The position numbers and the translations under genes were made by a program. From NCBI RefSeq assembly GCF_014279975.1, contig NZ_CP047936.1, positions 1,302,001-1,366,000 on the forward strand: DNA of 64,000 nucleotides, given 5' to 3'. Of the stretch, positions 26,346 to 57,131 are shown piece by piece; the first letter of the stretch is position 1, and every line of letters starts with the position of its first letter. The DNA is from Synechococcus sp. BIOS-U3-1. Its GTDB lineage: Bacteria; Cyanobacteriota; Cyanobacteriia; PCC-6307; Cyanobiaceae. Under the pieces are notes generated by a model. It worked only from the letters and a program-made list of their open reading frames with translations. It ran no database searches and was not told the DNA's origin.

Positions 26346-26473
26346 CGGGAGCTTGAAGTCAGCGCATGATCTTACGAACTCGCAATCACTGGCCGAAGCC
26401 AAAACAGGGGTGTGGTGAACCTGTAATGTGGATGATCGTCATTTCGCTTCGCAACTGCGGCGCTACGTCCTTT

Positions 26474-26674
26474 ATGGCCAAGAACAAGGGCGTCCGGATC
26501 GTTGTCACCATTGAGTGCACCGAATGCCGGTCCGTTCCCGCTTCCGAAAAGCGATCTCCCGGTGTGTCCCGCTACACGACCGAGAAAAATCGTCGGAACA
26601 CTACAGAAAGGCTGGAACTGATGAAGTTCTGCCCGCAACTCAACAAGATGACTCTCCACAAAGAGATCAAGTGA
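26474..26674 (+). CDS. rpmG: 50S ribosomal protein L33
   Basis: A 66-residue L33 starting [18 protein letters not shown], with the family's [11 protein letters not shown] and [10 protein letters not shown] segments. The CxxC near the N-terminus and the later single Cys give an incomplete zinc set. It is followed by rpsR after 38 nt, the usual L33-S18 pair in cyanobacteria. An extended -10-like element (TGTAATGT) lies about 50 nt upstream. Confidence 0.96.
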
Positions 26675-26712
26675 GCCTGCTATTCATCCAGTTTTCCAAT
26701 CGTTTCTGATTC

Positions 26713-26934
26713 ATGTCCAGCTCCTTCTTCAAGAAGCGCCTTTCTCCAATTAAGCCTGGCGATCCCATCGACTACAAAGATGTGGATCTGCTTAAGAAGT
26801 TCATTACTGAACGCGGCAAAATTTTGCCTCGCCGTCTTACTGGTCTCACTGCAAAACAGCAGCGTGATCTCACTAATGCTGTGAAGCGAGCCCGGATTGT
26901 GGCTTTGCTGCCTTTCGTGAACCCCGAGGGTTGA
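26713..26934 (+). CDS. rpsR: 30S ribosomal protein S18
   Basis: A 73-residue S18 with the typical [23 protein letters not shown] core and [24 protein letters not shown]-terminus. It ends with TGA at 26932-26934, immediately followed in the same frame by the RNB exonuclease coding sequence. Confidence 0.97.
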
Positions 26935-26937
26935 TTC

Positions 26938-28977
26938 CTGGCCGCTGTTGACTGCAAACCGGGAGATCTGGTCGGCATCAGCGACCTCAAATCAGCTCAG
27001 CTTGCTGTTGTTCTTGCTGCTCAAGGAAGCAAACGCCGTTTGAGTGTCGGCTTTCGAGGCAAGGAACAAGTTGTTCCAGCTCGGACCATCGATTTAATTC
27101 ACCCCCTGCCTGGCGACGTTGACCCGTCTACTGGGCTGGGGGTTTCTCCTTGGACCTTCAACGAGCATGACCTTCAAGAATGCAGTCCCAACTGTCGCGA
27201 CTGGGGCGAAACATGGGTCCTGCTGCTGGAATCAACTGAGACCGTTGATCTAGCTGATTTTGCTGAGTTGGCTTGCGGTACAGATTCTGTGTTGAGCAAA
27301 GCTGCCTGTTGGCTGGCTTTGCATCGAAACCAGGACTTTTTTCGTTGGAAGCAGGGTGCGGTTCAGGCAAGGCCTGCTGCCGAAATCCGTAGTCGACGCG
27401 CTGAACGGCGTGTACAAGTCAAAGCTGAACTACGAATCAAGCAGTGGGTCCAATTTTTGAAGGCCCGCCAACCATTGGTCTTCAATACACTTGACCCTCT
27501 GCACCAGCAGTGGATCAAAAGCCTGCAACAGCTGGTTGGTGACGGTGCTGAGGCGATCGAACTCGACTTTCAGCTCTCGCAGTCTTTGAAAACTGCTCGA
27601 GTGGAAGCCAATGCCAAAGATCTCCGTCATCTGCTGATTCAGCTAGGCCAGTGGGATGAACATCGACCGGCCTCAATCGCCGGTACGCCCTGGAGCAACG
27701 GATTCAGTGAAAATCTGCTTCTTGAAGCCAAGGAACTAGTCGAAAAGTGTGACAGGACGACTCCGGAGGATGAGAACAGACTTGACCTCACCGCTCAGAC
27801 CTGCGTCACCATTGATGATGCCGAGACGAATGACATTGACGATGCCATTGCTCTGGAACGTCGACAAGACGGTTCCAAACGTCTCTGGATCCATATCGCT
27901 GATCCAGGTCGATTGATCCCCGAGGGTTCACCCCTTGATCTTGAAGCTCGACGGCGTGGCAGCAGTCTCTATCTGTCGAGGGGCACTCTTCCAATGTTTC
28001 CAGCCGAGCTCTCGACAGGCCCCTTCAGTCTCAAGACTGGTCGCCATAACGCTGCCTGGAGCACCTGGGTGGATCTCGACCCGCATGGCGACGTTACCGA
28101 TTTTGGGATCCTGCGTAGCTGGGTCACCCCCCGTTACCGCCTGACGTATGACGATGCCGATGAACTGATTGATCTCGCTCCACCTGAAGAGACGGATCTT
28201 GCTGAACTTCATGAGTTGCTGGAACGGCGACGTCGTTGGCGGACTGATCGGGGTGCGCTTCAGATGGAGCTGCCTGAGGGCCGTATCCGATGCCGTGATG
28301 GCGAGTTGTCCGTGCAGGTCACGGAGCCAAGTCCCTCCAGGACAATGGTGGCTGAGGCCATGATTCTCGCTGGGGCCGTTGCCGCTCGATTCGGATCGAC
28401 TCACAATCTGGCTCTGCCGTATCGCAGTCAGCTCCCAGCCGATCTTCCCCCTGCTTCTGAGCTGGAACAGCTACCTGATGGAGCTGTTCGCTTTGCTGCA
28501 ATGAAGCGTTGCCTGAGCCGCGGTCTAATGGGAACCCAACCCTCGCCCCATTTCAGTCTTGGCCTCCAGGCCTACGCACAGGCCACCTCGCCGATCCGCC
28601 GCTACGGGGATCTTGTTGTACAACGCCAGATCGCCGCTGTGATCAACGCTGAAGATCCACTGAGTGAACAATCGATGCAGGACCTGATCAACACCTTTGA
28701 TACTGCTGTACGCGAAGGTCTGACGATCTCAAGGGAGGATCAGCGCCATTGGCAACAGGTCTGGTTCGAACGTCATCAGAGCGATCAGTGGCGAGTGGAT
28801 TTCCTGCGCTGGTTGAGACCTCAGGATCGGCTGGGGTTAGTTCGTCTCGATGATCTGGCCATGGATGTTGCTGCTGAATGCCCCACGGGATCGGTGCCTG
28901 GAGATGCTCTTGTGCTGCGGGTTGATCAGGTGGATTCCCAGTGTGACCAACTCAGACTGCTTGCCCTGGCTTGTTGA
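26938..28977 (+). CDS. RNase II/R family 3'-5' exoribonuclease (RNB domain), probable CTG start
   Basis: About 679 residues if started at CTG 26938. The RNB active site is intact: DDAETNDIDDAIAL around 27810-27850, and ATSPIRRYGDLVVQRQ around 28585-28630. The family degrades RNA processively from the 3' end. The first recognisable start, TTG 27040, would cut into a conserved-looking SH3-like N-terminal domain (KPGDLVGI through KRRLSVGFRGKEQVVP). Between the rpsR stop and 27040 the frame has no ATG, GTG or TTG. CTG 26938 has GAGGG 7 nt before it. The gene is tightly coupled to rpsR. Function is secure; the start is an inference. Confidence 0.9.
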   Translation: MAAVDCKPGDLVGISDLKSAQLAVVLAAQGSKRRLSVGFRGKEQVVPARTIDLIHPLPGDVDPSTGLGVSPWTFNEHDLQECSPNCRDWGETWVLLLESTETVDLADFAELACGTDSVLSKAACWLALHRNQDFFRWKQGAVQARPAAEIRSRRAERRVQVKAELRIKQWVQFLKARQPLVFNTLDPLHQQWIKSLQQLVGDGAEAIELDFQLSQSLKTARVEANAKDLRHLLIQLGQWDEHRPASIAGTPWSNGFSENLLLEAKELVEKCDRTTPEDENRLDLTAQTCVTIDDAETNDIDDAIALERRQDGSKRLWIHIADPGRLIPEGSPLDLEARRRGSSLYLSRGTLPMFPAELSTGPFSLKTGRHNAAWSTWVDLDPHGDVTDFGILRSWVTPRYRLTYDDADELIDLAPPEETDLAELHELLERRRRWRTDRGALQMELPEGRIRCRDGELSVQVTEPSPSRTMVAEAMILAGAVAARFGSTHNLALPYRSQLPADLPPASELEQLPDGAVRFAAMKRCLSRGLMGTQPSPHFSLGLQAYAQATSPIRRYGDLVVQRQIAAVINAEDPLSEQSMQDLINTFDTAVREGLTISREDQRHWQQVWFERHQSDQWRVDFLRWLRPQDRLGLVRLDDLAMDVAAECPTGSVPGDALVLRVDQVDSQCDQLRLLALAC

Positions 28978-50592: not shown

Positions 50593-50961
50593 GTGACTCG
50601 CGCTCGACAGCAATGGTCATGCATGGATCAGTGCGGTGCCTGTTGCCGGTTAGCACCTGATGAACGCCCGGAAGCAGTTGCAGCTCTCACTCCCCTTCAG
50701 CAGCAGAAATATCTGTCAATGGTGGGTGAAGATGGATGGTGCATACATTTCGACAGTGGAGCAAGGCGTTGTCGGATCTATGAATCGCGTCCGGATTTCT
50801 GCCGGGTGAGCAGCCTCTGCAGCTTGTTCGGCATTCAACCTGATCAGGCGGACCCTTTTGCGATCACCTGTTGTCGACAACAGATCCGTTCAGTGCATGG
50901 CGGTCGCAGCAGAGAACTGCGTAAGTTCGAACGTCTCATCCGTTCAACGGAACCTCGGTGA
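50593..50961 (+). CDS. YkgJ-like Cys-cluster (putative metal-binding) protein
   Basis: A 122-residue protein of the YkgJ/Fe-S oxidoreductase-like family. Cysteines lie at 10, 14, 17 and 18 (WSCMDQCGACC), 50 (GWC), 60 (RRC) and 70 (DFC), the expected CxxxCxxCC...C...C...C layout for binding zinc or iron-sulphur. GTG 50593 keeps the first Cys; an ATG two codons after it would lose it. Function is unknown. It is coupled by a 1-nt overlap to a GDT1 gene. Confidence 0.85.
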   Translation: MTRARQQWSCMDQCGACCRLAPDERPEAVAALTPLQQQKYLSMVGEDGWCIHFDSGARRCRIYESRPDFCRVSSLCSLFGIQPDQADPFAITCCRQQIRSVHGGRSRELRKFERLIRSTEPR

Positions 50962-51290
50962 TGACTGAATCCGGCACCACACAACGTCCTGGTTTCACCA
51001 CTGTCCTTCTGACAACCTTCACAACGGTTTTCCTTGCCGAACTTGGCGATAAAACCCAGTTGGCAACACTTCTGCTGTCCGCGCAATCTGGGCAACCCTG
51101 GCTTGTGTTCGGTGGTGCTGCACTGGCGTTGATCTGCTCCAGCCTGGTCGGCGTTCTAGTGGGACGTTGGCTGTCAACAGTGATGCAACCGGAACGGCTC
51201 GAGCAGATGGCCGGACTACTGATGTTGGGACTTGGGTTGTGGCTTGGTTCTCAGGCACTGCAGTCATTGATCTCCACCAGCCCTCTGTGA
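50961..51290 (+). CDS. GDT1/UPF0016 half-size cation transporter, copy 1
   Basis: A 109-residue membrane protein with three hydrophobic helices and one ELGDKTQLAT motif. The GDT1/TMEM165 family (Mn2+/Ca2+ export; Mnx in Synechocystis) normally has two such repeats in one chain. Here each repeat is a separate protein, and copy 2 follows 42 nt downstream, so a heterodimer is likely. The start couples to the YkgJ-like gene. Confidence 0.9.
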   Translation: MTESGTTQRPGFTTVLLTTFTTVFLAELGDKTQLATLLLSAQSGQPWLVFGGAALALICSSLVGVLVGRWLSTVMQPERLEQMAGLLMLGLGLWLGSQALQSLISTSPL

Positions 51291-51332
51291 CGAACCTCGC
51301 AGGATCGACTCGCTCTTGAACCTTTTTTTGTC

Positions 51333-51638
51333 ATGAATCTCACCCTGCTTCTGTCCACGTTCGCCACTGTTTTTTTGGCGGAGCTGGGCGATAAAACGCA
51401 ACTCGCCACTGTGGCAATTAGCGGTACATCCAACCGCCCTTTGGCTGTGTTTCTCGGCTCATCATCAGCACTCGTGCTGGCAAGCCTGATCGGTGCCATT
51501 GCGGGTGGATCATTAACAGGCGTCATACCCGCCGACTGGTTGCAGCTCATGGCGTCGCTTGGATTTCTAGCGATTGGACTAAAGCTGCTTTGGCCACTCC
51601 TCAGTGGAGCGGAAACAACCGCAGCCGCTGACGACTGA
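51333..51638 (+). CDS. GDT1/UPF0016 half-size cation transporter, copy 2
   Basis: A 101-residue protein with three hydrophobic helices and the ELGDKTQLATVAISG motif. It is clearly homologous to copy 1 but has a different C-terminus. It would supply the second EGDKT-type motif of a functional transporter. Mn export would suit a photosystem II organism, but the ion is inferred. Confidence 0.9.
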   Translation: MNLTLLLSTFATVFLAELGDKTQLATVAISGTSNRPLAVFLGSSSALVLASLIGAIAGGSLTGVIPADWLQLMASLGFLAIGLKLLWPLLSGAETTAAADD

Positions 51639-51760: not shown

Positions 51761-54124
51761 ATGAAATTCACGGTCGCTGACCTGCTTGATCAGGTCCCTG
51801 ATGAGGGTTCCCTGGAGATCGCCAAGCTCGAAAAAATCCTGCGGCTGACTAATCGTTCCGAAAAACAGTCTCTCGGACTTGCTGTTCAGGGATTAACCAA
51901 GCTTGGAATCCTGGATCTCACCAGCGATGGAACCCTTTGCAGGGGGTCAGCTGACGATCTGGTCGAAGCTCGTCTTCGCTGTAGCAGCAAGGGATTTTGT
52001 TTCGCGATTCGCGATGACGGTGGAGACGATATTTATATCCGTGATCATCAGCTCAATCACGCCTGGAATGGCGACAGGGTGCTTGTCCGACTGACTCGTG
52101 AAGGAGGCAGACGCCGTTCCCCAGAAGGAGGTGTGCAATGCATTCTTGAGCGGACCACCACAAGCTTGCTGGCAGCGGTGGAACAACAGGAAGAACGGGT
52201 GATTGCGGTTCCACTCGACGACCGATTACTGGCGTCGATTGAATTGTGTACAGAAGATGCCACCCATGCGGAAAAACCCGTAGGCATGGCTGTTGCTGAG
52301 GTTGTGCTTGATCGCTATCCGATCGCACAATTTCCAGCTCGAGGTCATGTTGCACGCTCTCTTCCCCTCGACGGTGGTTCGAGTGCCGATCGTGAGCTGA
52401 TGCTCACCAAAGCCAATCTTCATCAACGACCGGCACCTCCTCGCGCCAGTTTCAAGGCTCCATCCACCAAGAAACGTGAGGATCTGAGCGAACAACCCTC
52501 TTTGATGATCAGCGGTTGGCAAGCGGAAGGCGCGCCAACTTTGCCAGCTGTTCACGTCATCCCCCATGAAGGTGGCACCAGGCTTTGGATTCATACACCC
52601 GCTGTGGCAGAACGCCTAAGTCCGGGAAATAGTTATGACCAGTGGCTTCTCAATCAGTCGGAAAGCCTCTGTCTTGGGGGGCACTGGGTACCACTACTTA
52701 GTTCTGCTCTTGCAAAGGCCTCGTCCTTTTCTGTCGGCGATGTGCAAGACGCTGTTTCATTGCGTCTTGATATTGATGTCGATGGTGGATGGCGTGACTG
52801 GGAATTTTGCTTGAGTCGAGTTCGCCCAGTCGCTGAAGTAAATGCTGATGCCTTTCACGCTTTGGAATCTCGTAAACCAAAGTCCAGAGCTGTTCCTGCC
52901 GCTTTGAAGTCGATCAAAGACCAGATCGGTCAGCTAGAAACACTTATTTTTTGTGCAACAAAGTTGCATGAATCAGACCGAAAGGACGGTCGCATCGAAT
53001 TGGATCTGAGACGCGCTCAATCTGATGATCTTGGTGATCTAAACCGTGTGTCGCCCGACGGGGATGGTCAGAATTGGTCGACGCCATTGAACACCAGTTG
53101 CCCTAATTCGGTTCTCTCCGTTCTCATCCGGCACGCTCATCGAGTCTGGGAAGAGCACAGCCGTCAGCTGGGTTTACCAGCAATACTTCTTGATGCACCA
53201 CCTGCGGACGACGCCGCACTCAATGATGTTGCCAAGGCCGCTGTGGCGCTGGATGTGCCACTTGAGTTGGACGAAGACGGAGCACCAACACCGTCCGAAC
53301 TTTCACTGGCCCTTGCCAACAGTGATTCGAGCCATGTCCTCAATCTGCAACTCAGACAGGCTTTGCCGGAGAGTCTTTATCGGGTCGCAATCATGAACAG
53401 GGAATCTGTTCCCGAACCCTCTGAAGAGGCCTCGATCGAGTCCAATGAAGATCAGGTGAATCATGAACCCGACAGCAACGACGCTGAGGGATCGAGCAAC
53501 CAAGCTCTTCAACCCATTGCTCCATGGTGCTGCCCAACGCTGCATCAGGCAGATGTCATTAACCAACAGGTCCTTTGTTCACTGCTTAATGACGGTAAAG
53601 ATCGACCAAATGTGCGCCAAAAGAACAAAGTAAAACTTGGTGAAAAGGGAGTTGCTGCCTCAATCAGCTGGCCTCTATTCACGGCGTCTCAAGAGCAGAA
53701 AATATTGGACATGATCCGCGAACGCACCGTGCAGAAGTTGAATTCGCGTCGTCGCCAAGTTGAGGAGCTCAAGAGGGATGTCCTGGCAATGACCAAGGCC
53801 CGTAGCGCAGAGCCCATGCTCGATCAGCAGCAAACCGGTGTAATCAGTGGGGTTCAGAGCTACGGATTTTTTGTTGAAATTGCTCCTTCAATGGTTGAAG
53901 GTCTAGTGCATGTCAGCTCACTGAATGATGACTGGTATGAATATCGATCAAGACAAAATCGTCTGGTTGGCAGACGAAGCAGGCGCGTCTATCAACTTGG
54001 TGACGCCGTCGAGGTAAAAGTTCTCAAGGTTGATGTGCTGAGAAACCAAATCGATCTTGAAGTGGTTCCTGCCTCTGCTCCTGTTTCTGACGATCCTCTG
54101 CCGGTAGCTGTGAGCGAGGAATGA
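51761..54124 (+). CDS. RNase R-like (Zam-type) protein with degenerate RNB domain
   Basis: A 787-residue protein laid out like RNase R: N-terminal helix-turn-helix-like and cold-shock domains (RCSSKGFCFAIRDDGGDDIYI), a central RNB-like region, and a C-terminal S1 domain (GVISGVQSYGFFVEI). The RNB catalytic DxxDFDDA segment is absent before LPAVHVIPHEGGTRLWIHTP. The RNA-contacting TSPIRRYPDL motif is replaced by WCCPTLHQADVI. A long acidic insert (about 53400-53510) precedes this. Synechocystis Zam, an RNB-family protein, is the likely relative. It may bind RNA without cutting. It overlaps ubiX by 4 nt. Confidence 0.82.
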   Translation: MKFTVADLLDQVPDEGSLEIAKLEKILRLTNRSEKQSLGLAVQGLTKLGILDLTSDGTLCRGSADDLVEARLRCSSKGFCFAIRDDGGDDIYIRDHQLNHAWNGDRVLVRLTREGGRRRSPEGGVQCILERTTTSLLAAVEQQEERVIAVPLDDRLLASIELCTEDATHAEKPVGMAVAEVVLDRYPIAQFPARGHVARSLPLDGGSSADRELMLTKANLHQRPAPPRASFKAPSTKKREDLSEQPSLMISGWQAEGAPTLPAVHVIPHEGGTRLWIHTPAVAERLSPGNSYDQWLLNQSESLCLGGHWVPLLSSALAKASSFSVGDVQDAVSLRLDIDVDGGWRDWEFCLSRVRPVAEVNADAFHALESRKPKSRAVPAALKSIKDQIGQLETLIFCATKLHESDRKDGRIELDLRRAQSDDLGDLNRVSPDGDGQNWSTPLNTSCPNSVLSVLIRHAHRVWEEHSRQLGLPAILLDAPPADDAALNDVAKAAVALDVPLELDEDGAPTPSELSLALANSDSSHVLNLQLRQALPESLYRVAIMNRESVPEPSEEASIESNEDQVNHEPDSNDAEGSSNQALQPIAPWCCPTLHQADVINQQVLCSLLNDGKDRPNVRQKNKVKLGEKGVAASISWPLFTASQEQKILDMIRERTVQKLNSRRRQVEELKRDVLAMTKARSAEPMLDQQQTGVISGVQSYGFFVEIAPSMVEGLVHVSSLNDDWYEYRSRQNRLVGRRSRRVYQLGDAVEVKVLKVDVLRNQIDLEVVPASAPVSDDPLPVAVSEE

Positions 54125-54729
54125 TTCCTTATGTGATCGGTATCAGCGGAGCTTCCGCACAACAGCTTGCTGAGCGCACATTGCAGTGGATGTTGCGCCG
54201 TGATCTGAGCGTTCACGTGATTCTCAGTCGTGGTGCCCATGAAGTTTGGCGCGCAGAACGGTCGATTTCGGTTCCTGTGGATTCAAGACTTCAGGAACGC
54301 TTTTGGCGGGATCGACTTGGAGTTGAACAAGGTCAACTGGTCTGTCATCGCTGGAACGATCAATCAGCTGTTGTCGCCAGTGGCAGTGTTCCTACCAAAG
54401 GCATGGTGGTGGTGCCCTGTTCCATGGGAACCGTTGGTCGCCTGGCGGCGGGACTTGGCGGAGACCTTCTTGAACGCTGTGCAGACGTTCATCTCAAAGA
54501 GGGCCGTCCTCTGGTAATTGCACCGCGAGAAATGCCATGGAACCTGTTGCACCTTCGCAACCTCACGACTCTCGCTGAGGCAGGAGCAAGGATCGCTCCT
54601 CCGATACCGGCCTGGTACACCCAGCCAGAAACCATCGACGACATGCTCGATTTCCTCGTGATGCGTCTCTTTGACTCGTTAGGGGAATCGCTCACGGACC
54701 AGAAGCGATGGCAGGGGCCTCAGATATGA
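54121..54729 (+). CDS. ubiX: Flavin prenyltransferase UbiX
   Basis: A 202-residue UbiX-family protein. GISGAS near the N-terminus binds FMN, VVVPCSMGTVGRLA and ADVHLKEGRPLVIAPREMPW are typical, and PPIPAWYTQPETIDDMLDF closes the site. UbiX makes prenylated FMN for UbiD decarboxylases. The N-terminal ASAQQ differs from the usual ASGAI. ATG overlaps the previous stop. Confidence 0.92.
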   Translation: MIPYVIGISGASAQQLAERTLQWMLRRDLSVHVILSRGAHEVWRAERSISVPVDSRLQERFWRDRLGVEQGQLVCHRWNDQSAVVASGSVPTKGMVVVPCSMGTVGRLAAGLGGDLLERCADVHLKEGRPLVIAPREMPWNLLHLRNLTTLAEAGARIAPPIPAWYTQPETIDDMLDFLVMRLFDSLGESLTDQKRWQGPQI

Positions 54730-55292: not shown

Positions 55293-55976
55293 GTGAGCGA
55301 AACCTCCGACACTCCTGCAAAGCTTGAAATGCCTGACGTGCCGGACACCACTGCAGGTGTAAAAGGCTCAGCGAAAGCAGATTCACCTGCCTCACCGAAC
55401 AAGAGAGAAGCAGCGGTGCCAACTGACCAAGCTGCCAAGTCCAAAACAGCTGATCAGGCATCGAGCATTGATCAATCCGCGAAAGCTGCCACAGCCGACA
55501 AGCCAGTGAAGGCAGAGAAAGCTGCCAAATCAGCGGATGCCGGTCAATCCGCAAAGCCAGCCAAAACAGACAGCGCAGATCAACCGCCTAAGCCCGCAAA
55601 ACCAGCTCCAAAGCCAAAACCGGAGGACAAGCCCTTTGCAGAGTTCATCCAGGAAAATCTGCTGCCTTCACTGAGCAAATCCTTGACTGAACGTGAACAA
55701 GCACCGATCAGTCTTGAGCTCGTTGAAGGAGAACGACCTGTGGTGGGTGGTCGATGTTGGATGATTCAAGGCGAATTGCCCGCAGGACGGCGGTTCTGGC
55801 TTTGCTTTGAATCCGATGCGATCACATCTGGCAAGACCATTGTCCTCGCTGAATCCGGTTCAGACCCAAGCCTGCTGGAATCCTTCTTGATTGATGAGAA
55901 ACGCATCAACCAGGCCTTGTTGGAATCCCGTTTACTTCAACGCCTAAATGGGCAGAAGTGGTTCGGAGGCAACTGA
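55293..55976 (+). CDS. DUF2996 protein, possible NdhV
   Basis: A 227-residue protein started by GTG 55293 (no in-frame ATG). Residues 1-110 are an Ala/Lys/Pro/Asp low-complexity region with short imperfect repeats. Residues 113-225 form the DUF2996 domain (PFAEFIQENLLPSLSKSL, then GGRCWMIQGELPAGRRFWLCF). Cyanobacterial and plant members include NdhV, a subunit of the NDH-1 complex in cyclic electron flow; I rely on memory for that link. acsF follows after 72 nt. Confidence 0.75.
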   Translation: MSETSDTPAKLEMPDVPDTTAGVKGSAKADSPASPNKREAAVPTDQAAKSKTADQASSIDQSAKAATADKPVKAEKAAKSADAGQSAKPAKTDSADQPPKPAKPAPKPKPEDKPFAEFIQENLLPSLSKSLTEREQAPISLELVEGERPVVGGRCWMIQGELPAGRRFWLCFESDAITSGKTIVLAESGSDPSLLESFLIDEKRINQALLESRLLQRLNGQKWFGGN

Positions 55977-56048
55977 ACCAATGGGTTACACCAAGCCCCG
56001 ACTGGGCCTGGACTCCATTTACGATGGAGACAACACACGTTGGATCTG

Positions 56049-57131
56049 ATGGTGCCTCCCACCGCTGTGAATGACACGAAATCCGGGGGTCCCGGCGTCT
56101 CCGTCAAAGATCCAGTCAAGGACACGATCCTCACTCCACGCTTCTACACAACAGACTTTGAAGCCATGGCGGAGATGGATCTCCGCCCTAACGAAGCAGA
56201 ACTCGAGGCTATTTGTGAGGAGTTCCGCAAGGATTACAACCGTCACCACTTCGTGCGCAACGAGGAGTTTGACGGTGCTGCCGACAAGCTCGACCCTGAC
56301 ACGCGCCGTGTGTTCATCGAGTTTCTTGAACAGAGTTGTACTTCCGAGTTTTCTGGTTTCCTTCTTTACAAAGAACTAAGTCGTCGTATCAAGGCTCGCA
56401 ATCCTCTTCTTGCTGAATGCTTTGGACATATGGCTAGGGATGAAGCCAGGCATGCTGGTTTTCTCAACAAGTCCATGAGTGATTTTGGGCTTCAGCTTGA
56501 TCTTGGTTTTCTTACTGCAAATAAGAAATATACGTTTTTCAAACCTAAATTTATTTTCTACGCCACCTATCTTTCTGAAAAAATTGGTTATTGGCGCTAT
56601 ATCGCTATTTTTAGACACCTTGAAAAAAATCCCGAGAGTAAAATCTTCCCTATCTTTAATTTCTTTGAAAATTGGTGTCAAGATGAAAATCGACACGGAG
56701 ACTTTTTTGACGCTCTCATGAAGTCTCAGCCTGAAACCGTTCGTGGACTTCGTGCACGGCTATGGTGTCGTTTCTTTTTACTTGCAGTTTTTGCAACGAT
56801 GTACGTGAGAGATGTAGCTCGAAAAGAGTTTTACGAAGCTCTCGGGCTGGACGCACGCGAATATGACCGGATGGTGATTGATAAGACCAATGAAACATCA
56901 GCTCGTGTGTTCCCCGTCGTTCTTGATGTTAAAAATCCGCGTTTTTACGAACGCTTAGAGAACATCATTATCAACAATGAATCTTTAGAATCTGTTGATC
57001 AAAGTTCTTCCCCAGCTCCTATCAAATTTGTTCGCAAACTTCCACACTGGTTTGCTAACGGAGCACAAATGGCTTCTCTGTTCCTGATGGCACCTGTTCG
57101 CAGTGAAAACTTCCAGCCCAGTGTGCGCTGA
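56049..57131 (+). CDS. acsF: Mg-protoporphyrin IX monomethyl ester oxidative cyclase
   Basis: A 360-residue AcsF, the aerobic diiron cyclase that forms the fifth ring of chlorophyll. The diiron ligand motifs [10 protein letters not shown] and [11 protein letters not shown] are present. The length and the N-terminal TPRFYTTDF block match the family. ATG 56049; TTG 56040 would add three residues. Three lines of the central part (56521-56700) have about 32% GC by hand count, against 55% in the start of the gene. Stop/start TGATG with tldD. Confidence 0.97.

Follow-up and report, generated by a model that had tools for sequence, protein, structure and literature searches.

The DNA analyzed here, referred to as the window, is a stretch of 64,000 nucleotides of Synechococcus sp. 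BIOS-U3-1 (NZ_CP047936.1, positions 1,302,001 to 1,366,000 of the forward strand). The genome (2.71 Mb, one contig) shows two RNB matches: an RNase R-type protein without catalytic aspartates, which is the subject of this analysis, and an intact second RNB protein, Rnb, which was used for comparison. The features of both loci, in window coordinates, are the following:

27040-28977, + strand: Rnb, intact second RNB protein, with the four aspartates and TSPIRRYGDL present.
50958-51638, + strand: two genes for single-domain GDT1 cation antiporters, which precede zam on its upstream side (PF01169).
51761-54124, + strand: zam, 787 amino acid residues, RNase R-type protein without catalytic aspartates (ORF with an ATG start; domains, fold and tree).
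51956-52156, + strand: first cold-shock domain (CSD1), residues 66-132, with 41 of its 67 columns conserved at 90% or more in the window's family; boundaries are approximate.
51980-52000, + strand: cysteine pair C74 and C80, spaced as C73/C79 of the PCC 7002 Zam (alignment).
52139-52141, + strand: C127, a cysteine exclusive to the window's family (50/50 in the family and 0/127 in other Zams).
52157-52375, + strand: second cold-shock domain (CSD2) region, residues 133-205, from strands of the AlphaFold model; boundaries are approximate.
52475-53812, + strand: RNB region without active site, residues 239-684 (Pfam 239-610, extended to S1 by hand).
52499-52549, + strand: former active-site segment, residues 247-263, SLMISGWQAEGAPTLPA (MAFFT and hhalign).
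53396-53518, + strand: acidic insert, residues 546-586, mostly of low confidence (model pLDDT and alignment).
53525-53560, + strand: WCCPTLHQADVI, residues 589-600, in place of the TSPIRRYPDL motif (MAFFT and hhalign).
53813-54070, + strand: S1 domain, residues 685-770 (Pfam match 685-767, and family conservation).
54121-54729, + strand: ubiX, UbiX family flavin prenyltransferase, overlapping the end of zam (TIGR00421, 151.5 bits, cut-off 108.9).
56040-57131, + strand: acsF, Mg-protoporphyrin IX monomethyl ester cyclase (TIGR02029, 503.5 bits, cut-off 192.5).

Pfam matches over the cut-off were found on the 787-residue protein for OB_RNB (71-126), RNB (239-610, 112.7 bits) and S1 (685-767), in agreement with the RNase R-like order of domains, with an S1 domain, that a first-pass annotation of this DNA had read. 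The second cold-shock domain was delimited by the model strands and the superposition on RNase R; the Pfam CSD2 match is below the cut-off and overlies CSD1. The AlphaFold model, built with 33 aligned Zams, has a mean pLDDT of 77.6 and a pTM of 0.76. Its best VIA-align match is RNase R (7dcy, Z 35.8, rmsd 4.6 over 606 residues), other matches being E. coli RNase R (5xgu, Z 33.5) and Ssd1 (7am1, Z 30.3), and Foldseek also ranks RNase R first, so that the comparison with RNase R by AlphaFold, proposed as a check, returned an RNase R fold with a Z of about 35. The likeness to RNase R (E. coli, M. genitalium and the 8cdu chain) extends to the domain order and to the whole fold, residues about 64-771 (Z 33.5-35.8); however, the window protein lacks the catalytic aspartates and RRY, and with TIGR02063, the NCBIfam equivalog of RNase R, it scores 174.3 bits, far below the cut-off of 597.85. 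An identity as RNase R, the active enzyme, was rejected on these three points, and according to the model the RNB domain is predicted to be a whole fold minus its catalytic residues.

The gene of the window protein is orthologous to zam, and its host is a marine Synechococcus-like cyanobacterium. In a phylogenetic tree, 81 Zam rows split from four RNase R rows with an SH-aLRT of 100; Rnb was outside this tree and was separated from Zam by BLAST scores. Thomas et al. (2022, PMC9145284) describe Zam as a clade of RNB proteins that is found in cyanobacteria, is related to RNase R and has a degenerate active site, therefore the core finding is already published; the first-pass annotation had itself named Zam for comparison. 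With the Zams of PCC 6803 and PCC 7002 the window protein shares the RNB, cold-shock and S1 domains, the degenerate site, a CSD1 cysteine pair six residues apart (C74 and C80 in the window Zam), a tryptophan and a run of arginines conserved in CSD1, and an intact Rnb as second RNB protein in the genome. In the window's family the tryptophan is W102 (50/50) and the arginines are R117 (49/50), R118 (50/50) and R119 (49/50), matched to the W (L34) and arginines (L45) of the paper by our own pairing. The same authors call the two CSD1 cysteines invariant (C73 and C79 in PCC 7002) and report that their mutation in the PCC 7002 Zam reproduces the deletion phenotype, so that they are needed in vivo, that phycocyanin synthesis is lowered and the PSI:PSII ratio changed in the zam mutant, and that Zam is redox-responsive in two strains; no nuclease activity was seen with an aggregation-prone preparation and no RNA binding with purified Zam (PMC9145284). 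A link to, or complex with, RNase E has been proposed (PMC9145284, PMC10989914). The words Prochlorococcus, ubiX, operon and marine are absent from the text available of PMC9145284, figures, which name species, aside, and literature searches found no experiments on the Zams of the window's family. Among the papers listed by the full-text searches, one review besides this paper was judged relevant to Zam.

In a MAFFT alignment, D272, D278, D280 and D281 of E. coli K-12 RNase R are opposite S, P, L and P of the window Zam, and TSPIRRYPDL is opposite CCPTLHQADV. An hhalign comparison of 20 Zams of the family with four RNase R proteins (E 1.8e-52) matched these segments as well and put S, G, P and P opposite the four aspartates. 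The two methods differ in details; both leave the window Zam without an acid at the four positions. The first-pass annotation had reported both the absence of DxxDFDDA and the replacement of TSPIRRYPDL, and each is borne out, with none of the four aspartates by either method and no RRY. It had also asked whether the loss is conserved across relatives: all 50 Zams read from the window's family, belonging to 34 genera, lack the four aspartates and RRY, and since 49 other proteins share the loss a sequencing error is unlikely.

A total of 177 Zams were read, 50 from the window's family (the window's own included), which had 134 genomes with a match, 50 of them sampled here, and 127 from other cyanobacteria. 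The latter sample is uneven: 80 named loci are the best 80 of at least 575 relatives of a query with three aspartates, and since the query itself has that state the sample is biased toward such proteins. Identical proteins were collapsed, with three near-identical pairs (98.5% or more) remaining, one locus (L099) is cut by a contig end, and Zam ORFs shorter than 600 amino acids were excluded. None of the 177 keeps all four aspartates. In the window's family, Asp at any of the four positions and RRY were found in 0/50.

Several residues distinguish the window's family from the 127 other Zams, which do not stand for the PCC 6803 and PCC 7002 proteins themselves. The RRY arginines are missing, and the aspartate of HIADV, which is D or E in 127/127 other Zams, is gone (0/50). 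Tryptophans are found at 253 (49/50 against 0/127), 276 (50/50 against 0/127) and 309 (50/50 against 3/127). At the third and fourth aspartate positions of the MAFFT alignment, L261 and P262 are present in 49 and 47 of the 50 and in none of the 127, and P588 and W589 are present in 49 and 46 of the 50 and in one of the 127 each. The cysteine set also differs: C127 (50/50) and C304 (46/50) are absent from the other Zams (0/127 each), in contrast to Cys at 29 (116/127) and at 216 (125/127), both 0/50 in the family. C74 and C80 are common to both sets (48/50 and 50/50 in the family, 126/127 each in the others). The loss of the site in the window Zam is real and conserved, within a family already known, and its branch has taken a further, lineage-specific step that was not found described in full-text literature searches. 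With windows fixed beforehand from the RNase R motifs, the old site is not significantly enriched in conserved positions (6/23 against 57/382, p 0.13), as opposed to wider windows drawn after looking (13/40 against 50/365, p 0.004); because the fixed windows are not significant, we make no claim of higher conservation for the old site as a whole than for the remainder of the RNB domain. What the alignments show is replacement of its residues, and no special constraint on the whole segment is claimed.

Two window's-family Zams show Ser at the first cysteine position of the CSD1 pair, and one compared genome has a Zam with Cys at 73 and 79. The Zams of a further coded family, f18 (L190/L198 and L191/L199, genomes G229 and G365), have no CSD1 cysteine pair and a short RNB domain; the protein is a 699-amino acid frame in G229 and is split over two reading frames, and so left out of the set read, in G365. 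The pair, described as invariant in the literature, is thus not shared by all Zams.

The long acidic insert that the first-pass annotation regarded as unusual does exist (11 of its 41 residues are acidic), but it reads as a variable linker by its alignment: its length ranges between 11 and 47 residues in the window's family (median 22.5) against a median of 11 and a maximum of 17 in the other 127 Zams, and no column is conserved at 90% or more in the family. Residues 549-578 are modeled with pLDDT below 50.

The RNase R fold, the loss of the site by two methods and in 50/50 family proteins, the split of Zam from RNase R in the tree, the cysteine pair, the purifying selection described below and the published Zam data lead us to consider the window Zam probably as a non-degrading, redox-tuned regulator that binds RNA or RNase E, built on a dead RNase R fold. 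Zam would not degrade RNA; the CSD1 cysteines C74 and C80, perhaps together with C127 in the window's family, would set the binding to RNA or RNase E, and that binding, through CSD1 and S1, would tune how fast photosynthesis transcripts turn over. The funnel that once held the catalytic site would serve as a structural or protein-binding core. Against this reading speak the missing RNA binding of purified Zam (PMC9145284), the Zams that lack the cysteine pair, and the report on Alr1240 discussed below. The strongest conservation of Zam is found in its first cold-shock domain and S1. The inactive RNA-binding regulator or scaffold of the first-pass annotation agrees with this conservation, with the absence of a canonical site, with purifying selection and with the published view of Zam; regulation and scaffolding as such we infer.

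The first-pass annotation had also suggested a partner of the active enzyme, that is, a Zam complexed with the intact Rnb and modulating it without catalysis of its own. Rnb shows TIDDAETNDIDDA at the active site and TSPIRRYGDL, which confirms that the second RNB protein near 26.9 kb keeps both motifs, and the genome has one Zam and one Rnb. In other families of enzymes, inactive paralogues are known to pair with active ones. However, the two genes are about 23 kb apart with different neighbors, no support for the pairing was found, and the complex proposed in print is with RNase E (PMC9145284, PMC10989914), so that we regard this arrangement as unlikely. All 32 Rnb rows compared, which represent 31 genes as L097 and L098 are the same gene, show D, D or E, D, D and TSPIRRY. 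Glu occupies the second catalytic position in 25 of the 31 genes, and Asp in the remaining six, namely the window's Rnb, a second Rnb of the same family and four belonging to other classes of the phylum. A sister-class RNB protein with intact motifs (L077) is absent from the later comparison sets. Upstream of 27040 the Rnb frame stays open as far as about 26935, a stretch in which no ATG, GTG or TTG occurs, and its start is perhaps CTG; rpmG- and rpsR-like ORFs, identified by eye, lie just 5' of it (window 26380-27040).

Somewhat less credible, and in our judgment improbable, is that Zam is still a nuclease with a non-canonical site. Alr1240 of Anabaena PCC 7120, named Zam by Thomas et al. (PMC9145284), is said in a review to degrade single-stranded, unstructured RNA (PMC10989914), a report that stands against the view of Zam as a dead nuclease. 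Among the 127 other Zams three aspartates are kept in 19, Oculatella- and Nodosilinea-type proteins being examples, two in 12 and one in 16, and 80 have none of them. In each of the 19 the one missing is the second, which contacts the RNA 3'-OH, and those present are the first, third and fourth, the presumed Mg ligands (PMC8097288). By coded families, which were not selected for it, the three-aspartate state is found in 3/27. The second arginine of RRY is kept in 124/127 proteins and in 25/27 coded families. In the window's family, Glu is found at the first aspartate position in 6/50, and the RNB domain has further conserved acids, e.g., D241, E284 and D293. Against residual activity, this family has 0/4 aspartates in 50/50 proteins and has lost the HIADV aspartate, otherwise universal among the Zams read, and the RRY arginines. 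Furthermore, the 24 named Nostocales Zams read all show E and N at the last two aspartate positions, and if Alr1240 is a Zam of this kind, such replacements would deprive it of a canonical site as well. The conflict between a dead Zam and an active Alr1240 stands, and it is sharpened by the Nostocales replacements.

The neighborhood of zam fits a link to photosynthesis by its neighbors ubiX and acsF. ubiX follows zam on the same strand in 46 of the 49 family loci that hold at least 700 nt downstream, the gap being no more than 20 nt in 45 of them. Among other loci that hold as much, it follows in 90 of 117, the gap being no more than 100 nt in 66. acsF is downstream in 12 of the 50 family loci, only 15 of which hold at least 2 kb downstream. 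Both GDT1 genes are upstream on the same strand in 50/50 family loci against 0/127 other loci, 123 of which hold at least 700 nt upstream. In this arrangement zam is presumably co-transcribed with the GDT1 genes, ubiX and acsF. A DUF2996 protein, with an N-terminal half rich in lysine and alanine, is encoded between zam-ubiX and acsF (window 55293-55976).

That Zam regulates specifically phycobilisome synthesis, as the lowered phycocyanin synthesis of the zam deletion could suggest (PMC9145284), is very improbable. A test of 14 family genomes gave no phycobilisome linker match and one weaker phycobiliprotein match in five, all belonging to a single coded genus and 1.6-1.7 Mb in size; seven of four further genera show one linker and two phycobiliprotein matches, and the window genome and one relative of its genus show 13 linker and 13 phycobiliprotein matches each. 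All 14, the linker-less five included, have a Zam match, and the two Zams read from the linker-less genus keep both CSD1 cysteines, therefore the role of Zam is not only in phycobilisome synthesis. By its 28% GC at the two zam loci and its genome size, this genus is probably high-light Prochlorococcus; ubiX was not found downstream of these two loci. The persistence of Zam in genomes that show no linker match, together with the altered cysteines of the window's branch, allows the published models of redox and phycobilisome control to be tested directly.

A zam gene decaying toward loss, for which the long branch to the window's family (1.25 changes per column), the one good family genome without a Zam match and an internal stop in one listed match (G094) would speak, is scarcely conceivable in view of dN/dS values of 0.07-0.21 in ten pairs from three species groups and of matches in 94 of 95 good family genomes, small ones of 1.6-1.7 Mb included. 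These dN/dS values are for the whole gene in the ten closest of 13 pairs above 80% identity, which come from three species groups, are non-independent and exclude the window protein; by part, they are 0.02-0.15 in the cold-shock domains, 0-0.09 in S1 and 0.08-0.25 in RNB, and in most of the ten pairs the cold-shock domains and S1 are below RNB. Within the three species groups sampled, the zam gene is under purifying selection, which contradicts a reading as a pseudogene, and the dead RNB domain is maintained.

Zam matches were found in 134 of the 151 genomes of the family, good genomes being those with a completeness of 90% or more and a contamination of 5% or less. Of the 17 genomes without match, 12 were checked again by a profile search; the sole good genome among them is G073 (94% complete), whose match is only inside an RNB stretch of its other protein. 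Among 14 genomes of other classes of the phylum, five show matches and nine none; as those matches fall within the part of the profile that covers the RNB domain, none of the 14 was found to have a Zam. A search of plasmid records with the window Zam gave 43, none covering 80% of the query, and many of the 30 rows listed of these 43 are annotated rnr.

A protein that works alike is yeast Ssd1, a fungal pseudonuclease derived from Dis3L2, with a dead RNase II fold, conserved cold-shock domains and aspartates repeatedly lost in related lineages (PMC8934651, PMC8097288). It differs from Zam by its separate origin, from Dis3L2, and by a funnel plugged by Ssd1-specific inserts, and a redox cysteine pair is not mentioned in the text available of these two papers. 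Zam could tentatively be taken as a bacterial equivalent of Ssd1 whose decay is seen at several stages, a reading that we hold to be possible but doubtful. The stem would have lost the aspartate that touches the RNA 3' end, followed by metal aspartates in many lineages, and the ancestor of the window's family would also have dropped the RNA-contact arginines, rewired its cysteines by giving up C29 and C216 and acquiring C127 and C304, and converted the former pocket into a Trp/Pro binding or redox-sensing site that works without phycobilisomes. With 124 of 127 Zams outside the window's family holding the RNA-gripping arginine and 19 holding three aspartates, the transition from nuclease to regulator could be dissected stepwise through living intermediates.

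Parsimony on a tree with open forks at the base of Zam gives three changes for the three metal aspartates together, two for the second aspartate and three for the second arginine; because of these forks, any order of the losses outside the window's family would be tentative. A loss of the second aspartate in every Zam was ruled out by five proteins of Trichodesmium, Okeania and Hydrocoleum with D at that position, which under the Ssd1-like reading would be a regain. These five Zams (L129, L131, L132, L133 and L145) show G, N and H at the other three positions, a pattern that is the reverse of the Leptolyngbya-type one.
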